A stretch of 64,000 nucleotides of DNA. Source: Psychrobacillus sp. FSL K6-2836 (GTDB lineage: Bacteria > Bacillota > Bacilli > Bacillales_A > Planococcaceae). The position numbers and the translations under genes are program-made. Under the pieces are notes generated by a model. It worked only from the letters and a program-made list of their open reading frames with translations. It made no database searches and was not told where the DNA came from. Position 1 is the stretch's first letter. Every line of letters begins with the position of its first letter. Shown piece after piece: positions 1,429 through 59,506 of the stretch. The DNA lies in contig NZ_JBBOOM010000001.1 in NCBI RefSeq assembly GCF_038003085.1, positions 744,001 through 808,000 of the forward strand. Reading direction: 5' to 3'.

Positions 1429-2400
1429 TCACAAAACCTCCAAGCAGACTACAATCATTGCAGCTATAAAACCTATTGCCCAAAATACGGTAACTATTTT
1501 ACGCTCATTCCATCCTGATAATTCAAAATGATGGTGAATCGGGCTCATTTTGAATATACGTTTACCGGTTGTTTTAAAACTAATTACTTGCAATATTACC
1601 GACAGCGTTTCAATTACAAAAATAATCCCAACTAGTAGTAATAACAATTCATGTTTAACTAGAATGGATACCATGGCTAATGCCCCACCTAAGGCTAAAG
1701 AACCCGTATCTCCCATAAACACTTTTGCTGGATTTTTGTTGAACAATAAAAAACCTAAAAGCGCACCTGAAACACTAAATGTAAATATAGCTATATCTGT
1801 TTGTTCATATGCAAGTGCTAGAACACCGAATGTTGCAAAGGCAACCGTTGCAGTTCCTGCTACTAAACCATCTAAGCCATCTGTTAAGTTGACGGCATTT
1901 GAAAATCCAACTAGCCAGAATATTAGGAACGCAATATACAATTGACCTAAAGGCAGGTCCATTTGTGTAAACGGTATTTCAATTGTTGTATCAAATGGAC
2001 CTTGCTTTAGTAAGAAGTATGCGATGACTGCAATAAGAATTTGACCAATTAGCTTCTGAATAGATGTTAGACCTAGATTTCTTTTCAATACAACTTTTAT
2101 AAAATCGTCTAAAAATCCAATGACACCGAATCCTACCAAAATAACTAATAAAACAATGGATTGAGTCGTTAACTTATCAAAATAAAATGAAAGACCAAGT
2201 GTAGAAATAATAATGGAAGCTAAGAAGATTAGCCCTCCCATTGTAGGAGTACCCGCCTTTTTCTGGTGCGACTGAGGTCCTTCTTCTCTTATACTTTGAC
2301 CAAACTTCATTCTTCTTAAATATGGAATAACGATTGGAGCAAGAATAACAGAAAGTAAAAAACTAACAATAAGTGTAATTACCGTTGTAGATAATGTCAT
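1429..2400 (-). CDS. mraY: phospho-N-acetylmuramoyl-pentapeptide transferase
   Basis: Polytopic membrane enzyme that transfers phospho-MurNAc-pentapeptide to undecaprenyl phosphate, giving lipid I. The 323-residue protein shows about ten hydrophobic segments and the family signatures [21 protein letters not shown] and PIHHHFE. Its start at 2400 is followed closely upstream by spoVD (stop at 2445). In B. subtilis murE lies between these two genes; here only 44 bases separate them, so murE is absent from this position. Confidence 0.97.
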
Positions 2401-2444
2401 GAAAAAATCTCCTTAAATACGATCAACTATTAATGAATGTACTA

Positions 2445-4352
2445 TTATTTATTTGTGTAAACATGTATCGTTCCATCTAATGGGATGAGCCCATTTTCTT
2501 TTGGTAGCTGGGATATTATTTCGTCTCCCTCACCATGCCAAACAATAGTGAAAGGATACATATAGGACGTGATTTCTTTTCTTTTCGTTCCCACTAGGTT
2601 TGGTGTACGGACTTGTTCCACATCTCCCCATCTATATTCTTTTTCCAGTTGGGTACCACTACCTTTTGTCTTCAGGGAGTCTTCCAAAATTTGGCCTACA
2701 ATTGGTGCTGCTATGACTCCTCCAAATTGACTGCTATGCTTTGGGTTATCAATTGCCACGTATACAATAAGTTCTGGATCATCTGCAGGTGCAAAACCGA
2801 TAAAGGAAACGATGTATTCCCCTTCCATATAACGGCCATCTTGAACCTTTTGCGCTGTACCTGTTTTTCCGCCAATCCGAAGCTGGTCACGATATGCATT
2901 TCTACCTGATCCTTCCGCAACTACGTGTTCCAAAGCATCTCGTACGATAGCTGACGTTTCCTCACTAATAACTTGACGCTTCATCTCCGGCTCGCTACTT
3001 GACAATATTTCGTTTGTTTCACCGTCGATTGTATTTTTTACAATATATGGCTTATATAGATAACCACCATTAACCGCTGCAGCTACAGCTTGCACTTGTT
3101 GAATAGGGGTAACAGATATTCCTTGGCCGAAGGATGTTGTAGCATGTTCAACTGGTCCAAAGTTTTCTTTACTAAATAGAATACCCGTGGATTCCCCAGC
3201 CATCCCTGACCCTGTTGATTCTCCAAAGCCAAAGCTACGTATGTATTCTGATAGCTTTTCTGCACCAACTCTATTTCCTAGTTCAATAAAACCCGGGTTA
3301 CAAGAATTTTCAACAACCTCTAAGAATGTTTGATCTCCATGACCTTCACGTTTCCAACAACGGAGCCTAGACCCTTCAACCATGGTATACCCAATATCAT
3401 GAAAGTGATCCTCCTCCAAGTCTACTACTTTCTCTTCTAATGCCGCACTTAATGTAATAATCTTAAAAGTTGAACCTGGTTCAAAGGTCATCCAAACTGG
3501 TAAGTTTCGGTTATAAATAGTTGAATCCACCTCTTGGTAATTAGATGGGTCAAAATTGGGAGCAGAAGCAAGAGCTAAAATTTCACCGTTTTTAGGGTTC
3601 ATAACGATTGCAATCGCTTGGGTTGCCTCATACTTTTGCATAGCCTGAGTAAGCTCACGTTCAACTACTTTTTGAATATCTAAATCTACTGTAAGTTGAA
3701 CATGATTACCTTTTACCCCATTTTTCCAGCCGTCGTCCACATGAGGAAGCGGTACTCCTTTTGCGTCAGTAAACATTCGAACAGCGGAGGACTTTCCTTT
3801 TAAAATTGAATCGTATTGATACTCGATTCCAGCAAGTCCTTGTGCATCATATCCTGTGAATCCTACTAATCTAGATAACATATTACCATAAGGATAGTCT
3901 CTTATATAATCTACTCCAGCATACAATCCTTTAATATTCTTATCTTGTATGTCCATTGCTAGTTCACTAGAAATATTTTTTCCTTTTGGTGCGATTTTTA
4001 CCAAGTAACTTCTCTTGTTTATTTGCTCCAAAAGCTCACCTTTGTCCATACCAATTAAAGGTCCAATTTCATTTGCTACCTGCTCAGGATCCTCATTTTG
4101 AGATGGCATATAAAATAAGGTAGGTGCAAGCTGATTTCCAACGATTACTTCTCCATTACGATCCAAGATGTTTCCTCGAAGTGATGCATAAGGTAGCTCT
4201 CTATCCCAGCTTTCTTTCGCTTTCGTCGTAAGCTCATCAAATTGAAAGAATTGAAGTTGAACTAATTTGAAAAGTACCAACAAGAATAATAAAATAATCA
4301 TAATCCAAATCATTCGTAGACGCATAATTTGTTTTATTTTAGAAATTGCCAA
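2445..4352 (-). CDS. spoVD: sporulation penicillin-binding protein SpoVD
   Basis: Class B penicillin-binding protein (transpeptidase), in B. subtilis required for spore cortex synthesis together with SpoVE. Order seen: one N-terminal membrane anchor (about residues 13-35), a dimerisation domain, a transpeptidase domain with EPGSTFKIIT (catalytic Ser), an SCN triad and GGKTGTAQ, then one C-terminal PASTA-like domain. A single PASTA domain, second position after pbpB and a sigma-E-like promoter just upstream favour SpoVD over a second division PBP. The listed start is TTG with AAAGGGG only a few bases upstream, so the spacing is short; ATG at 4325 is an alternative without a visible ribosome binding site. 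Confidence 0.92.
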   Translation of the reverse strand: MAISKIKQIMRLRMIWIMIILLFLLVLFKLVQLQFFQFDELTTKAKESWDRELPYASLRGNILDRNGEVIVGNQLAPTLFYMPSQNEDPEQVANEIGPLIGMDKGELLEQINKRSYLVKIAPKGKNISSELAMDIQDKNIKGLYAGVDYIRDYPYGNMLSRLVGFTGYDAQGLAGIEYQYDSILKGKSSAVRMFTDAKGVPLPHVDDGWKNGVKGNHVQLTVDLDIQKVVERELTQAMQKYEATQAIAIVMNPKNGEILALASAPNFDPSNYQEVDSTIYNRNLPVWMTFEPGSTFKIITLSAALEEKVVDLEEDHFHDIGYTMVEGSRLRCWKREGHGDQTFLEVVENSCNPGFIELGNRVGAEKLSEYIRSFGFGESTGSGMAGESTGILFSKENFGPVEHATTSFGQGISVTPIQQVQAVAAAVNGGYLYKPYIVKNTIDGETNEILSSSEPEMKRQVISEETSAIVRDALEHVVAEGSGRNAYRDQLRIGGKTGTAQKVQDGRYMEGEYIVSFIGFAPADDPELIVYVAIDNPKHSSQFGGVIAAPIVGQILEDSLKTKGSGTQLEKEYRWGDVEQVRTPNLVGTKRKEITSYMYPFTIVWHGEGDEIISQLPKENGLIPLDGTIHVYTNK

Positions 4353-27412: not shown

Positions 27413-27862
27413 TTAGGCAGAACATGAACAAGAACCACCGGTACCGCATCCACTTCCACAGCTAGAACCAGCAGAAGCAAAAAATGGGTTACTAACTGGA
27501 ACTTTAACACCTTCTGAAACAGATTTACCAATTAACAAACTCACTTCGTCTAGTAAGTCCTGCAAGTCGTTCTCAGCAACCTTTAAGTGCGCCACTGCAT
27601 CTACCATATCCAATTTTCGTTTAGTTACTCGGATGTCTTTCATAACCTTCGAATAATCAGGATGGTATTTCCCGAAACGTTGAACTTCTTCGTATTGATC
27701 CTTTAGCCTAGTGAAGCTATTAACCTCACCTACTAAAGTTGTATCTGTATATACAGCACGATGTGCATCTAAGTATTGGTAAAATTGTTCAGAGGAAAGA
27801 ATCATAGTACATAATATATCCGATTGATCCATTATATCGACCCATTCGTTTGTCATAATCAT
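27413..27862 (-). CDS. ricF: RicF (YlbF), subunit of the RicAFT complex
   Basis: In B. subtilis RicF, RicA (YmcA) and RicT (YaaT) form an iron-sulfur complex that supports RNase Y-dependent mRNA processing and competence, sporulation and biofilm development. Start at ATG 27862, eight bases after GGAGG, gives 149 residues (MIMTNEWVDIMDQ). The body is helical (DUF964/YlbF fold). The C-terminal tail SSCGSGCGTGGSCSCSA is cysteine-rich, with four cysteines in the last 15 residues, consistent with cluster binding. Confidence 0.92.
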   Translation of the reverse strand: MIMTNEWVDIMDQSDILCTMILSSEQFYQYLDAHRAVYTDTTLVGEVNSFTRLKDQYEEVQRFGKYHPDYSKVMKDIRVTKRKLDMVDAVAHLKVAENDLQDLLDEVSLLIGKSVSEGVKVPVSNPFFASAGSSCGSGCGTGGSCSCSA

Positions 27863-27945
27863 TTGATTAACCTCCAATCTGAGTTAATCATACCAGAAAA
27901 GTAAAAATAAATGCCAAACTATTAACTTTTTGTTAGGAGAAAATA

Positions 27946-28443
27946 ATGAACAAACTACAAAATTTATTTGAAAAAGTAGCAGAACAGTCATCTGAACAAG
28001 AACTAGACTTAATAAATGATTTTCTAAATGCGATTCAACAAAAGCAACAAAACCAGTCACCTACATACTTAAATGCCGTATTTCAAATGGATACTCAGTA
28101 TGAGCAAGATCAATGTATCGTCACAATGCCAATAACTCCAATCTCATATAATAGTTTTAATATGCCTCATGGCGGTATTATCGCTACACTTTCTGATAAT
28201 GCAATGGGATTTTTAATTAACAAGGATTTACACCCGGAAGGAAAGGGTGCAGTTACAACGAATATGACAATTCACTATGTTAAATCTTCAACGGAAAAAA
28301 CGTTGATTGCAACTGCTAAATATTTACATAAAGGTCGTCAAACAATAGTAATGGAATGCACAGTAACACAACCTGACGGAAGAAAAATAGCTTATGCTAC
28401 GGGATCATTCTTTGTGATTAATCCCCTCTCTTCTTCAAAATAA
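27946..28443 (+). CDS. PaaI-family hotdog thioesterase
   Basis: A 165-residue hotdog-fold acyl-CoA thioesterase-like protein. The motif NMPHGGIIATLSDNAMGF carries the HGG and the downstream acidic residue used by the PaaI/YdiI group; the last strand (GRKIAYATGSFFVI) is typical. The extra helical N-terminus of about 45 residues is longer than usual. Good ribosome binding site TTAGGAGAAAATA. Its last 52 bases overlap, tail to tail, the 3' end of the murE gene on the other strand. Substrate unknown. Confidence 0.8.
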   Translation: MNKLQNLFEKVAEQSSEQELDLINDFLNAIQQKQQNQSPTYLNAVFQMDTQYEQDQCIVTMPITPISYNSFNMPHGGIIATLSDNAMGFLINKDLHPEGKGAVTTNMTIHYVKSSTEKTLIATAKYLHKGRQTIVMECTVTQPDGRKIAYATGSFFVINPLSSSK

Positions 28444-29852
28444 GCATTGACTACATCACGATCAGAAAAAGGGACTACAGAGTCATGTAAAATTTGCTCT
28501 TGCTCATGTCCCTTTCCTGCTATTAATACAATATCCCCCGCTTCTGCCATTTGTAGTGCATACGTAATGGCCTGTTTACGATCGGGTTCTATTCGAAACT
28601 TCTTGTTATCCAGTCCTCTTATAATCTCTTTAATAATATCTGATGGGTTCTCATTTCGTGGATTATCGGAGGTGATTATAGCTTGTGTTGCAAAAGCTGT
28701 AGCTACCTTTCCCATCTCGTTTCGTTTTTTCTTATCTCTATTTCCTCCACAACCAAATACAACGTATATATTATTTTTTGCAAAGGATTTAATAGTTGAA
28801 AGGCAGGCTTCCAGAGCATCTGGCGTATGTGCGTAGTCGATTAGCACCTTAATCCCTTTATTATTATCCACATGTTGAAATCTTCCAGTTGGAAGGGTAA
28901 GAGGTTTTATGTTTTGAAGTGGGATATTCAAGGCCCATAAAGAAGCAAGTGCAGCAGCAAGATTCATCCCATTATAAAATCCACTGTTCCTCATTTGCAC
29001 TTCTATTTCTTCATTCTTTACTTTAAATTTATACATTATTTCATCTTCTTTGTCGTTTTTCTGTTGAAACACAACCGTATTACGAGCATCCAAACCGAAG
29101 CTTATAATAGGTAAAAAAGAATTTTCAGCCACTGTTCTACACCATTCATCATCCGCATTTACTACTATTTTGGTACATAGTGGAACTAGTAATTCCTTTG
29201 ATTTTTTGTATGGGACCATCCCACCATGAAACTCAAGATGATCTTTTCCAATATTCAAAAACACTCCAATATCTATCGGATAGTTACCCAAGCGATTGTC
29301 CAATAATCCTTGCGAAGATGCCTCCAAAATGATGAACTCAATAGAATGCTCATAACAATAATGTACTATTTGTATAAAATCATAGAATGGTAATGTCGTA
29401 TTATTGCGGAAATTTTGTTCCAATTGCTTTCCGTTGATAAACACGCCTAATGTCCCTATTACACAAACCGACTTCCTTTGTTGCATAAGTAATTGACCTA
29501 TGAAAAAAGCAACTGTTGTTTTGCCATTTGTACCAGTTATCGCAACTGTTTTCACTTTTTTTCCATATAATTCATAGGTTTTTTTACCAATCCTCTCCTT
29601 TAATCGTTCCATTTCGGAAGGAATAATAACTTGGGGAACGCTACAATCAGCTATAAAAACTTCTGATATTACCGCAATTGCCCCTAGATGAATAGCTTCA
29701 TCTATAATGGAACGATTATTTTTCTCGGAGATAAATATATCCCCTTCTTTAATCTGTTTTGAAAAATTTACGATTCTGCTCATACGACATAGTGAAAAGT
29801 TGCCAATTACACTATATGTTAATCCTTTTAAAAGTTCATTTAACGGATAAAT
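28392..29852 (-). CDS. murE: divergent MurE: UDP-MurNAc-tripeptide ligase, probably meso-DAP-specific
   Basis: ATP-dependent Mur ligase adding the third amino acid to UDP-MurNAc-L-Ala-D-Glu. From the start chosen here the protein has 486 residues, normal for MurE: N-terminal domain (1-100), P-loop GTNGKTT (107-113), and the C-terminal domain with SDNPRNENP (395-403) and GKGHE (446-450). DNPR is the signature of enzymes that add meso-diaminopimelate. The usual EVSSH segment reads EASSQG (178-183), so a normally conserved His is replaced; this is a divergent paralog. No ATG, GTG or TTG fits the start: ATT at 29852 is nine bases after AGGGAG and gives MYPLNELLKG, matching MurE N-termini. Alternatives are ATG 29783 (no ribosome binding site, truncated) or an upstream ATG reaching into the neighbouring kinase gene. 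Confidence 0.85.
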   Translation of the reverse strand: MYPLNELLKGLTYSVIGNFSLCRMSRIVNFSKQIKEGDIFISEKNNRSIIDEAIHLGAIAVISEVFIADCSVPQVIIPSEMERLKERIGKKTYELYGKKVKTVAITGTNGKTTVAFFIGQLLMQQRKSVCVIGTLGVFINGKQLEQNFRNNTTLPFYDFIQIVHYCYEHSIEFIILEASSQGLLDNRLGNYPIDIGVFLNIGKDHLEFHGGMVPYKKSKELLVPLCTKIVVNADDEWCRTVAENSFLPIISFGLDARNTVVFQQKNDKEDEIMYKFKVKNEEIEVQMRNSGFYNGMNLAAALASLWALNIPLQNIKPLTLPTGRFQHVDNNKGIKVLIDYAHTPDALEACLSTIKSFAKNNIYVVFGCGGNRDKKKRNEMGKVATAFATQAIITSDNPRNENPSDIIKEIIRGLDNKKFRIEPDRKQAITYALQMAEAGDIVLIAGKGHEQEQILHDSVVPFSDRDVVNAYFEEERGLITKNDPVA

Positions 29853-29869
29853 AGTACCACACTCCCTAC

Positions 29870-29896
29870 ACCATTCTTGTAAAATCGCATACAGTA
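29870..29896 (+). promoter_or_regulatory. putative sigma-K-like promoter for the aspartokinase gene
   Basis: AC (29870-29871), 16-base spacer, CATACAGTA (29888-29896). This fits the AC-N16-CATAnnnTA pattern of sigma-K; the -10 box also fits sigma-E (CATACAnT) but the -35 does not. Transcription would start about 60 bases before the kinase ATG. Confidence 0.5.
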
Positions 29897-29910
29897 AAAT
29901 GAATTCCCTG

Positions 29911-29938
29911 TATCGTATGAACGGAGTGTTTGAAATGT
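29911..29938 (-). promoter_or_regulatory. putative sigma-K-like promoter for murE
   Basis: Minus strand AC (29938-29937), 17-base spacer, CATACGATA (29919-29911). Transcription would start near 29904, about 50 bases before the ATT start codon at 29852, which itself argues against the longer murE frame. It faces the similar box of the kinase gene 14 bases away. Confidence 0.5.
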
Positions 29939-29964
29939 CACGAATAGAGTGGTTGAGATTATGA
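29935..29964 (+). CDS. nine-codon leader ORF coupled to the aspartokinase gene
   Basis: ATG at 29935 has GGAG about eight bases upstream and encodes MSRIEWLRL followed by TGA. The TGA overlaps the kinase ATG as ATGA (29961-29964). The kinase ATG itself has only a weak ribosome binding site, so this tiny ORF could deliver ribosomes to it. Its peptide shows no Lys run or other attenuator signature. It may equally be chance. Confidence 0.35.
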   Translation: MSRIEWLRL

Positions 29965-30692
29965 TTGTTCAGAAATTTGGCGGAATCGCCATGCAAAATC
30001 ATCAGAACAGGCAACTAGTAATGAAACGAATTCAGCAAGCTATTAAAACCCATCAAAAAGTGCTTGTCGTTGTTTCCGCAATGGGAAGAAGGGGTAAACC
30101 CTATGCAACTGATACGTTATTAGATTTACTTCCTTTCACCGACAATAGCACTGAAACCGATTTGCTCTCTGCATGTGGAGAGTTAATCTCAAGTTCTGTA
30201 TTAACAACAGAACTAAAGAATGAAGGAGTATCTACTACTCTTCTTTATGGCAAAAACGCCGGCATTATTACAAATGATACGTATGGAAATGCCCTTATTA
30301 AAAAAGTAGATCCTAGTGCTATATACCAAGCATTTGAAAATTTCCAATGCGTCATCGTTCCAGGTTTTCAAGGTGTCTCAGAAAGTACACACAATTTTAC
30401 TACATTAGGGAGAGGTGGCAGTGATTTAACCGCCGTAGTCTATGGCTATTATTTAAATGCTGAAGTAGTTGAGTTTTACAAAGATGTACCTGGTATCATG
30501 ACTTCTGATCCTTTTACTAACAAGCATGTAAAGCTCATTCCTTTTATGACTTATGAAGAACTCCAAGAAAAGATTGAGGAGCCTGTCGAAGTCATACAAA
30601 AAAGAGCAGCCACATTTGCTGCTCTTCATCAAGTCCCTTTGCATATTCGCTCTTTGTATCATGAAAGTGAGGGCACCTATGTGTCCAACTAA
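29961..30692 (+). CDS. aspartokinase-like protein lacking ACT domains
   Basis: Amino-acid-kinase fold protein of 243 residues that closely follows the catalytic domain of aspartokinases: MIVQKFGGIAM at the N-terminus, TTLGRGGSDLTAV and FYKDVPGIMTSDP, and the domain end VIQKRAATFAALHQVPLHIRS. It stops after EGTYVSN, where normal aspartokinases continue with two ACT domains that bind lysine, threonine or DAP. It is therefore likely an aspartokinase without feedback control, though another carboxylate kinase role is possible. Start ATG 29961 is preferred; GTG 29949 is an alternative. It is divergent from murE and ends exactly where the convergent ylbC gene ends, with no spacer. Confidence 0.78.
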   Translation: MIVQKFGGIAMQNHQNRQLVMKRIQQAIKTHQKVLVVVSAMGRRGKPYATDTLLDLLPFTDNSTETDLLSACGELISSSVLTTELKNEGVSTTLLYGKNAGIITNDTYGNALIKKVDPSAIYQAFENFQCVIVPGFQGVSESTHNFTTLGRGGSDLTAVVYGYYLNAEVVEFYKDVPGIMTSDPFTNKHVKLIPFMTYEELQEKIEEPVEVIQKRAATFAALHQVPLHIRSLYHESEGTYVSN

Positions 30693-31781
30693 TTATTGTG
30701 GAATATCTTTGGGAGTATTTATAGCTTTTCGATCGATAAAATTTTGCGTATAATAGCTACCATATACTCCAATACCAGTATGTGTATAATCTTTACCTAA
30801 TAAGATCTCTCGATGATCTTTAGAATTCAACCAACCATTTACAGCTTCCCCAGCATCGAAATAAAAAGCGGCTGTATTTCCAGCTGCACTTGAAAATTCA
30901 ATTGAGGACTCTTTTAATTGATCACTAAACTTTGAAACTTCAAATTTTTCATTGACAACAATATTATTTTTGGCCATTTCTTCACTATTATCCATCGCGA
31001 TATTTTGCAATTCATTATCAGACATAAGTAAACGAAGGTTGTTACGATAACGATATACATTCGTGAGTTCAAATATCTGTCTCTCGTTGGCACGGTCTAT
31101 TGCAGACTGAAAAAGAGAATCTGGTGTCTTAGGTTCTACCATAATACCGTTATATAAAATGTCATAAGGTTTATGCAATAAAATAGTCTTAGGATCTGTA
31201 AACCTAACTGCCTCCAGCTGTCGACTTTCTGAATCTATATATAACATTGCAAATAAATTATCAAACTGAACTAATATTCTATTGTCTATATCTTCATCCG
31301 TAAGAGAAAAGGTATAAGTATTTGAATCTATAGAAAATGTAATTTCAGATTGCACTATCGTAAATCGATAAATTTCATCTACGTCCTGTCCAATTTTATA
31401 AGGAGTGACCTCTACGTTTGCTCCTGCAGCAAAGACCTGTGTAACTTTATCTCCTACTACTCCAACTAGCAAATAAGTCGTGAGAGATTGATTGTAGACC
31501 CACCACTCATATCCAAATGCCGATGGTTCGATCCGAGAGGGCTTCCCTAACAACCCAATAACTTCTTGGGTCGAACCTCCTACTAATGTTGAGATTCCTA
31601 CCTTAGGGCGTGTAAATACCGTCTCAACTTCCACAACTTCTGAAGAAGTATCTGGAATTACCTGTCCTGTATTATTTGAACCAGTAATAAGTTCATTTTC
31701 ATGTACAGGATTATCAAAATATATTAAAATCACTAGTACTATAGCTATAGCAATAACAATTCGGATTATATTATTCATCAT
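30693..31781 (-). CDS. CAP/SCP-domain exported protein YlbC
   Basis: Exported protein of 362 residues with one N-terminal transmembrane segment (about residues 5-22), a CAP-associated middle domain and a C-terminal CAP (SCP/PR1-like) domain, visible as LTNVYRYRNNLRLL, IAMDNSEEMAKNN and GWLNSKDHREILL. Function of bacterial CAP proteins is poorly defined. Good ribosome binding site AAGGAGATAAAGCT. In B. subtilis ylbC is followed by ylbD, ylbE and ylbF; here murE, the kinase and the thioesterase occupy that interval. Confidence 0.88.
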   Translation of the reverse strand: MMNNIIRIVIAIAIVLVILIYFDNPVHENELITGSNNTGQVIPDTSSEVVEVETVFTRPKVGISTLVGGSTQEVIGLLGKPSRIEPSAFGYEWWVYNQSLTTYLLVGVVGDKVTQVFAAGANVEVTPYKIGQDVDEIYRFTIVQSEITFSIDSNTYTFSLTDEDIDNRILVQFDNLFAMLYIDSESRQLEAVRFTDPKTILLHKPYDILYNGIMVEPKTPDSLFQSAIDRANERQIFELTNVYRYRNNLRLLMSDNELQNIAMDNSEEMAKNNIVVNEKFEVSKFSDQLKESSIEFSSAAGNTAAFYFDAGEAVNGWLNSKDHREILLGKDYTHTGIGVYGSYYTQNFIDRKAINTPKDIPQ

Positions 31782-57999: not shown

Positions 58000-58439
58000 A
58001 CTTCTCCTCCAAATAAAAATTTAAACCGTTCGCTTCAATATCTTAGCAAAGAAACTCAACTTTTTAATTATCCTTTTTTCGGCTATTATGTATTAGATTA
58101 ACAACAATTCTCCACAATCTATATATGTATTTATACAATTACTTTTTCCCTTATTTTTTTATTTTAACATATATAATCACACTGTAATTAACGTAGCAAA
58201 AAGACCGTTGACAACATCTTTTATCATTATGACATTTTGATTGCGATATCATATGATATTTTATATGTTAAATCCCAACAACCTTTGTTTCATAAGGTTA
58301 AAAAGAGACCAAATCATATGTGATTTGGTCCCCTTATTAGTATGATATTTTGTATTTTTCTCCATAGAAACGGAGCTTCCAATATATGAGGTTCCTTTTT
58401 ATGTTTTGGCGCATAAGTTATACATTCCATGAAATGAAA
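58000..58439. other. 440-base AT-rich gap with one hairpin
   Basis: No credible coding sequence or repeat family is seen between the GDPD gene start and the lrgB stop, apart from the terminator at 58302-58330. The middle (58080-58200) is very AT-rich and may hold the GDPD promoter. Confidence 0.6.
58302..58330 (-). terminator. terminator downstream of lrgB
   Basis: GACCAAATCA / TGATTTGGTC stem with CTCTTTTT following on the minus strand, about 110 bases after the lrgB stop. Confidence 0.65.
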
Positions 58440-59114
58440 TTAAATTAATAGCGCAAACAATGGGCAAACAAAAGATCCAAATATTGCACTTAAAGTCATC
58501 GAGACGGAACCCATTGTTAAGGTTTCTTCCCCATACTCTCCAAGTTTGGAAAGGCCAATACCATGGGAAGCACTTCCCATTGATATACCTCGACTTATCG
58601 CTTTTTCGACACGACAAATCCTAAAGATAAAGGGTCCAAATATAGCTCCTATTATTCCCGCAAAAATAACGAAAGCTGCCGTTAATGTTGGAATACCCCC
58701 TATCGCCTCGCTAATGGGGATAGACACCGGTGAAGTAATCGATTTTGGTAATAATGATAATAGAATATGATCATCGAATGACAATAATTTAGATAATATA
58801 GTAATACTTATTAATCCCGAAAACAGAGCACTCAATACACTTAATAGAATTGGGACTTTATATTTGAAAATTTTCTCTCGGTGAATATATAGAGGATAGG
58901 CCATACTAACAACAGCTGGTCCTAATAGTTCATTTATCCACTTTCCACCAGACATATATGTGTCATAAGATATATTACTCATAACTAAAATAATCACAAG
59001 CAATACCGTTGTTGAGAAAATAGGAATTAATAACGGGTATGTAAATTTTTTATATACAGAAGTCATTACATAAAAAAGCATAATTGTTCCGATTATCATC
59101 ACAAATGCAATCAT
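58440..59114 (-). CDS. LrgB/CidB-family membrane protein
   Basis: A 224-residue protein with six or more hydrophobic segments and the signatures LLPKSITSPVSIPISEAIGG and RGISMGSASHGIGLSKLGEYG. LrgB works with LrgA; the pairs influence murein hydrolase activity in staphylococci, while a B. subtilis pair (PftAB, formerly YsbAB) moves pyruvate. Which role applies is open. Its ATG overlaps the lrgA stop by four bases. Confidence 0.88.
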   Translation of the reverse strand: MIAFVMIIGTIMLFYVMTSVYKKFTYPLLIPIFSTTVLLVIILVMSNISYDTYMSGGKWINELLGPAVVSMAYPLYIHREKIFKYKVPILLSVLSALFSGLISITILSKLLSFDDHILLSLLPKSITSPVSIPISEAIGGIPTLTAAFVIFAGIIGAIFGPFIFRICRVEKAISRGISMGSASHGIGLSKLGEYGEETLTMGSVSMTLSAIFGSFVCPLFALLI

Positions 59115-59506
59115 TCAATTTGCTCCTTTTCTTTTTCTAATAGTTTTCTCTCAAGGAACTCACAAAATTTCCCGGTTACAATAATAGTTATTAGCGTACT
59201 TATGAAAATTGATAAAATCATTCCTAAACCGGTCCAAGATAGGAGTTCTGGATAGTCCATAATTCCAACAGTTGCTGGTATAAAAAACAAGGCAAGAAAG
59301 GTCAATAAAAACCCAACTCCATCTTTAATAAGCTCGACAGGGATTATTTTAAAATATAAACAACCAAAAAGTAATAACAACCCAATAATACTTCCAGGAA
59401 ATTGAAGTGATAGACTTTGTACGATCCAAGATCCAATAAACGAGAAAATATATAAAATAATTACTTGGAAAACAATACGAATAATTTTAACCATTTTACG
59501 CTTCAA
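59111..59506 (-). CDS. LrgA/CidA-family holin-like protein
   Basis: A 131-residue protein with four transmembrane segments; LQFPGSIIGLLLLF is the conserved stretch after helix one and VGFLLTFLALFFIPATVGIMDY follows. Partner of the downstream lrgB gene. Start TTG 59506 has only a weak ribosome binding site; ATG codons further in are possible. No linked LytR-type regulator is in view. Confidence 0.85.
   Translation of the reverse strand: MKRKMVKIIRIVFQVIILYIFSFIGSWIVQSLSLQFPGSIIGLLLLFGCLYFKIIPVELIKDGVGFLLTFLALFFIPATVGIMDYPELLSWTGLGMILSIFISTLITIIVTGKFCEFLERKLLEKEKEQIE

Follow-up and report, generated by a model that had tools for sequence, protein, structure and literature searches.

A murE gene and a shortened aspartokinase gene were found head-to-head in a 64,000-nucleotide stretch of the Psychrobacillus sp. 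FSL K6-2836 genome (NZ_JBBOOM010000001.1, positions 744,001 to 808,000), referred to here as the window. The pair is flanked by ylbF and ylbC according to the open reading frame (ORF) listing and family scans, and this region is called the ylb locus. The window MurE is very probably a mother-cell ligase that would add meso-diaminopimelate (meso-DAP) to the cortex precursor during sporulation, with a separate MurE, the L003 type, as the vegetative ornithine ligase, SigK controlling the pair and the DapG-like kinase acting free of feedback. The features on which this reading is built are as follows.

28392 to 29852, minus strand: murE, predicted sporulation type for meso-DAP, 486 amino acids from ATT; TIGR01085 match; DNPR and GKGHE motifs; start taken from a 17-genome comparison.
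29850 to 29852, minus strand: ATT (AUU) start codon of MurE, conserved in 17/17 Psychrobacillus genomes.
29862 to 29867, minus strand: likely ribosome-binding site AGGGAG of MurE, present before ATT in 17 genomes (AGGAAG in G057).
29911 to 29919, minus strand: MurE SigK-type -10 CATACGATA; AC-N17-CATANNNTA exact in 17/17 Psychrobacillus genomes.
29937 to 29938, minus strand: MurE SigK-type -35 AC; N17 spacing kept in five further genera (AC in three, TC in two).
29870 to 29871, plus strand: kinase SigK-type -35 AC, conserved with N16 spacing.
29888 to 29896, plus strand: kinase SigK-type -10 CATACAGTA; AC-N16-CATANNNTA exact in 17/17 Psychrobacillus genomes.
29961 to 30692, plus strand: aspartokinase, catalytic domain only, DapG-like, 243 amino acids; NF006068 match, 3ab4 alignment and AlphaFold model.

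The window MurE matched TIGR01085 over its full length at 390 bits (cut-off 257.3), placing it in the MurE (UDP-MurNAc-tripeptide synthetase) family. Its DNPR and GKGHE motifs aligned with those of Escherichia coli MurE 1E8C and are of the meso-DAP-adding kind. An earlier note on this DNA had reported such an ORF here, and its description of the motifs was accurate.

Occurrence of the window-type MurE was surveyed in 151 genomes of the family (Planococcaceae) with spoIVA as the sporulation marker. An order-level search with profile A2 returned only this family, to which all statements are confined. The window-type MurE was found in 114 of the 151 genomes. Profile A2 detected 108 of these at E<=1e-125. 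Five g3 genomes were considered as co-occurrence exceptions and rejected as such: the match was split in two, the proteins scored 548-620 bits with the ylb profile, carried DNPR and GKGHE, and lay beside ylbF and the kinase. The last positive was a divergent copy (L163) in G020 of genus g2, which lies next to the kinase at the ylb locus and falls in the ylb group of the MurE tree with a branch length of 3.1. L163 had no promoter match on the MurE strand. Of the four g2 genomes, G020 alone had an intact spoIVA.

A spoIVA match over the cut-off was present in 113 genomes and a contig-end fragment in G099. The 37 genomes lacking the window-type MurE comprised 35 without spoIVA and two (G038 and G054) with a stop-bearing remnant; beyond 20 listed genomes, spoIVA negatives were identified by elimination. 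The window-type MurE was present in 114/114 spoIVA genomes and 0/37 others (Fisher p 4e-36, ignoring relatedness; 113/114 without G020). Six of 19 genera had no spoIVA match at all, and within the mixed genus g2 MurE tracked spoIVA. No MurE or kinase match was found at the ylb locus of five spoIVA-less genomes from five genera (G006, G008, G012 and G016, and by elimination G118). All five keep ylbC and ylbF, with the hotdog gene that neighbors murE in the window still between them in three. The link to sporulation drawn in the earlier note is supported by these counts, by the absence of both genes from the locus in the five spoIVA-less relatives and by the mother-cell-type promoter matches described below.

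Three ORFs in the genome exceeded the TIGR01085 cut-off, the window copy scoring highest. The others were L002 (4150032-4151330, between polY and rnz; 369 bits), with the motif DDLN, and L003 (2317573-2319114, standing alone), with no recognisable DNPR-like motif. Of the three, the window copy alone carries DNPR/GKGHE, the DAP signature. A second murE elsewhere had been expected in the earlier note, and the genome search returned two, so the window copy is not the sole murE.

In a MurE tree of 61 rows from 27 of 30 sampled genomes, single branches set apart five groups: the ylb type with 18 rows, the DDPR type with 17, the rnz type with 13, the L003 type with 10 and one further group with 3. 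The ylb type had DNPR in 15/18 rows and GKGHE in all except L163 (GKGNE). The DDPR type kept GKGHE and adjoined prfC in 3/3 loci checked. The rnz type had DDLN or DDRN at the DNPR site. The further group (L138, L146 and L151, from three genera) had DHPG, and SG(C/N)ING replacing GKGHE.

DDPR is the motif of the lysine-adding Thermotoga maritima enzyme (PMC9434261). The DDPR type was assigned by score in 130/151 genomes (weakest best E 1.9e-139), the top match being of this type in 17/17 such genomes read. The L003 type was found in exactly the 21 genomes without the DDPR type, namely 17 Psychrobacillus and four of genus g2. It was present in 17/17 Psychrobacillus genomes, while the rnz type had no match in three of nine examined (G041, G057 and G141; E<=1e-40). 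Because of this absence of the rnz type, the strongest candidate for vegetative ligase is the L003 type, which is also a candidate ornithine-adding MurE. Ornithine is reported in the walls of P. psychrotolerans and P. psychrodurans by the title of a reference cited in PMC11376405. The earlier note had assumed a non-DAP vegetative wall on the Lysinibacillus model; its L-lysine has to be replaced by ornithine for Psychrobacillus, one of two corrections to an interpretation that is otherwise supported. AlphaFold modelled the L003-type MurE with middling confidence (pLDDT 71.6). The C-terminal part of L003/L181 also matched pMurE, a model of pseudomurein ligases, at 145 bits (residues 190-485).

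The murE and kinase start codons are separated by 108 bp, and this gap is well conserved in the genus while MurE drops to 60% identity. The SigK consensus is AC-N16/17-CATANNNTA. A gap of 14-16 bases between a five-base -35 and a ten-base -10, as given in PMC517825, is compatible with the consensus used. The MurE strand of the 17 Psychrobacillus genomes read AC-N17-CATACGATA, with CATAAAATA in two, and the kinase strand read AC-N16-CATA(C/A)A(G/T)TA in all 17. The -10 letters that varied within the genus were N positions of the consensus only. These are predicted sites for a mother-cell sigma factor and not proof of use. The estimated start sites of the two lie about one base apart and the promoters would therefore overlap.

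Seven SigK-type matches were found in the whole 64 kb, two of them in the murE-kinase gap. The five others were at 58232 (+), 52996 (-), 54758 (-), 60068 (-) and 28415 (-); around 58232 there was no ORF of at least 80 amino acids on the same strand in 58000-59300. In five more kinase-bearing genera the MurE strand had AC (three) or TC (two) at N17 before CATANNNT(A/G) and the kinase strand had AC-N16-AATANNNT(A/G), these facing sites departing from the consensus by one or two letters. Genus g2 had a SigK-type match on the kinase strand only. With starts set by profile, a full match was found upstream of 19/47 window-type rows (17 of the 41 distinct proteins) compared to 0/42 other MurE and 13/883 other ORFs. 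The -10 alone was found upstream of 34/47 rows (29/41 distinct) compared to 1/42 and 74/883, respectively. The 19 full-match rows come from four genera, mostly g14, and several genera (g13, g19) had none.

The mechanical ORFs were 28392-30014 (-) for MurE, 540 amino acids from TTG, and 29949-30692 (+) for the aspartokinase. The 540-residue form was rejected as the real MurE: the additional N-terminal stretch overlaps the promoter matches, and in-frame stops break it in 5/17 genomes. The MurE frame meets the conserved N-terminus at ATT in 17/17 Psychrobacillus genomes, and the codon is doubled in G123, G141 and G147. The window ATT lies 9 bases after AGGGAG. In the five interrupted genomes (G096, G104, G111, G129 and G147) an in-frame TGA stands 2-3 codons upstream of ATT with no ATG, GTG or TTG between. 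No such codon was found within 39 codons upstream in 11 of the other 12, where the nearest lies beyond the promoter match. The exceptions near the start were G041, with GTG two codons upstream, and G129, with ATG at codon 8. Streptomyces sigR is a precedent for a rare start codon restrained by IF3, according to PMC5472188.

The kinase had its best match to NF006068 (PRK08210), which we take to be the model of DapG-type aspartokinases, at 268 bits with the next model at 198. The match spans 3-246 of 405 model positions with no ACT region and falls short of the whole-model cut-off of 474 bits, so the protein is not a full DapG-type member. It may nevertheless work like an aspartokinase. Aspartokinase motifs are present in its catalytic amino-acid kinase domain, and it aligns to the catalytic part of 3ab4 (3-242). 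Its AlphaFold model (pLDDT 86.7) had aspartokinases as top PDB matches. The 243-residue aspartokinase ending at its catalytic domain and head-to-head with murE was correctly read in the earlier note. Eleven aligned copies are 242-256 amino acids long with invariant catalytic motifs. The kinase is under purifying selection (dN/dS 0.08-0.13, with synonymous sites close to saturation in the four distant pairs). The LysC of the same genome favours other models (603 bits, compared to 370 for NF006068), and NF006068 matches over the cut-off were found in 0/16 family genomes and 1/14 control genomes. The kinase was present in 58/151 genomes, every one MurE-positive.

In Bacillus subtilis dapG (aspartokinase I) lies in the dipicolinate operon. 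The dipicolinate operon of this genome has the order dpaA-dpaB-asd-dapA with no aspartokinase gene, and no kinase homolog was found in 12/12 dpaA regions of ~13 kb each. This fits the supply of DAP and dipicolinate that the earlier note had proposed for the kinase. dpaA was identified from the adjacent DpaB, which scores normally, in this genome and from a weak spore_dpaA match alone in the other 11. spore_dpaA was under its cut-off of 319.65 bits in all 12 genomes (best match per genome 40-88 bits; the low-scoring DpaA loci include L194:6798-7598).

The genes surrounding the pair and the division cluster of the window are listed below.

27413 to 27877, minus strand: ylbF (ricF), flanking marker; PF06133 (Com_YlbF).
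27946 to 28443, plus strand: hotdog thioesterase gene, neighbor only, between ylbF and murE; PF03061.
30693 to 31781, minus strand: ylbC, flanking marker; PF14504 (CAP_assoc_N) and PF00188.
1429 to 4352, minus strand: neighboring division-cluster genes spoVD and mraY, no murE between.

Insertion between ylbF and ylbC was described in the earlier note; the flanks are correct and the thioesterase gene between ylbF and murE was overlooked. ylbD and ylbE presumably occupy the corresponding position in B. subtilis. MurE was read between ylbC and ylbF in 12 further genera and its placement there is therefore not due to chance. In the window the division cluster runs spoVD - mraY - murD; spoVD and mraY are 44 bases apart, and murE is missing there, in agreement with the earlier note. 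The source bacterium is described as cold-loving and from soil. A related-locus search returned 53 loci of which 11 were orthologs (60-89% identity), these being 10 Psychrobacillus records and Bacillus sp. FJAT-22090. The other 42 were distant MurEs (24-34%).

We infer DAP specificity, SigK rather than SigE control, freedom from feedback and the cortex chemistry from these patterns. In the proposed mechanism the L003-type MurE would build the ornithine-containing vegetative precursor. Late in the mother cell two facing SigK-type promoters in the 108-bp gap would turn on both window genes. The window MurE, dedicated to sporulation, would then add meso-DAP to the cortex precursor. The kinase, lacking an ACT region, would channel aspartate into the DAP/dipicolinate branch free of feedback and so replace the dapG missing from the dpaA-dpaB-asd-dapA operon. 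A more elaborate form, put forward tentatively, is a wall switch with two locks. The overlapping SigK promoters would tie the ligase to the feedback-free kinase, restraint of MurE through AUU and IF3 would keep DAP out of the ornithine wall, and an ornithine MurE with a new motif would complete the switch.

Several results weigh against the proposed mechanism. Staphylococcus aureus MurE mutants show that DAP use is not settled by the DNPR letters alone (PMC3829189), and 3/18 window-type rows have DNAR (L135 and L142) or DNSR (L140) instead. The genomes in the co-occurrence count are related, and independent losses among them are few. G020 is positive by locus and kinase neighbor only, profile A2 giving no match there at E<=1e-90. 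No SigK-type match was found within 340 bases upstream of the dpa operon of this genome. The kinase is absent from 56/114 sporulating genomes, spread over six genera, and is therefore accessory and not required. The murE and kinase had been presented as a pair in the earlier note; the co-occurrence survey showed that murE tracks sporulation and that the kinase (58/114) is not an obligate partner. In the MurE tree, representatives of the kinase-less sporulating genomes group together in a single clade (support 100/99), which suggests a single loss in the six kinase-less genera.

The window MurE could be a housekeeping or mixed-use ligase, with the other MurE-class genes doing something else. 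Its canonical motif agrees with this, and so does its score with the general MurE model, the highest among the three. The 37 genomes that lack an intact spoIVA have other MurEs but not this type, its identity within the genus (60-89%) is lower than that of the L003 type (82-97%) and it is preceded by a SigK-type promoter match; a housekeeping or mixed-use role is highly improbable. Almost as improbable is the rnz-linked DDLN gene as vegetative ligase in place of the L003 type. It is over the MurE cut-off and found in several genera but is missing from a third of the Psychrobacillus genomes examined, all of which have the L003 type.

The kinase could be an amino-acid kinase of other specificity, or a remnant. 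Its absence from many sporulating genomes favours this, as does the lack of an ACT domain, which usually takes part in aspartokinase dimer formation. The invariant motifs and similar length of the 11 copies, dN/dS of about 0.1 and the best score with the DapG-type model make it unlikely. Reading of the same promoters by SigE, at an earlier mother-cell stage, is a stronger possibility but not the favoured one. The SigE -10 consensus is CATACAMT, to which CATACGAT is close, and cortex precursor genes of B. subtilis are largely SigE-dependent. SigE-like -10s (CATACNNT) were also enriched before window-type genes (12/47 compared to 49/883), a further point against SigK. The -35 AC at 17 bp together with CATANNNTA fits SigK, as does the confinement of -10 variation in the genus to N positions of its consensus, and full SigE patterns as defined here, with starts set by profile, preceded 0/47 window-type rows; the background counts were 1 and 2 of 883 ORFs.

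The window MurE shares TIGR01085, DNPR and GKGHE with the meso-DAP ligases of E. coli (1E8C) and B. subtilis. Unlike these it lies outside the division cluster, is restricted to the sporulating part of a family in which other MurEs are retained, and has a sporulation-type promoter match and, in Psychrobacillus, an ATT start. The kinase shares its best-matching model and a sporulation link with B. subtilis DapG but has no ACT region, and its gene stands opposite murE at the ylb locus, outside the dpa operon. Compared to the lysine MurEs of T. maritima and S. aureus, the DDPR type of the other 130 genomes has the T. maritima motif and Psychrobacillus carries the L003 type instead. In biochemical work of the 1970s on Bacillus (Lysinibacillus) sphaericus, DAP-adding activity reportedly appears in sporulation while the vegetative wall lacks DAP. 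We know of no gene assigned to that activity. The present case offers a candidate gene with a locus, promoter match and distribution, in an ornithine-walled genus. A literature search turned up no paper on a sporulation-dedicated murE among the titles listed, which is weak evidence because the listings held a minority of the matching papers and few subscription papers were covered.

A gene, a promoter and a family-wide distribution are proposed here for the switch between a vegetative wall lacking DAP and a cortex that contains it, alongside a candidate ornithine-adding MurE. The kinase would be a natural aspartokinase without a regulatory domain. Within the family, the window-type MurE may serve to mark the capacity to sporulate.

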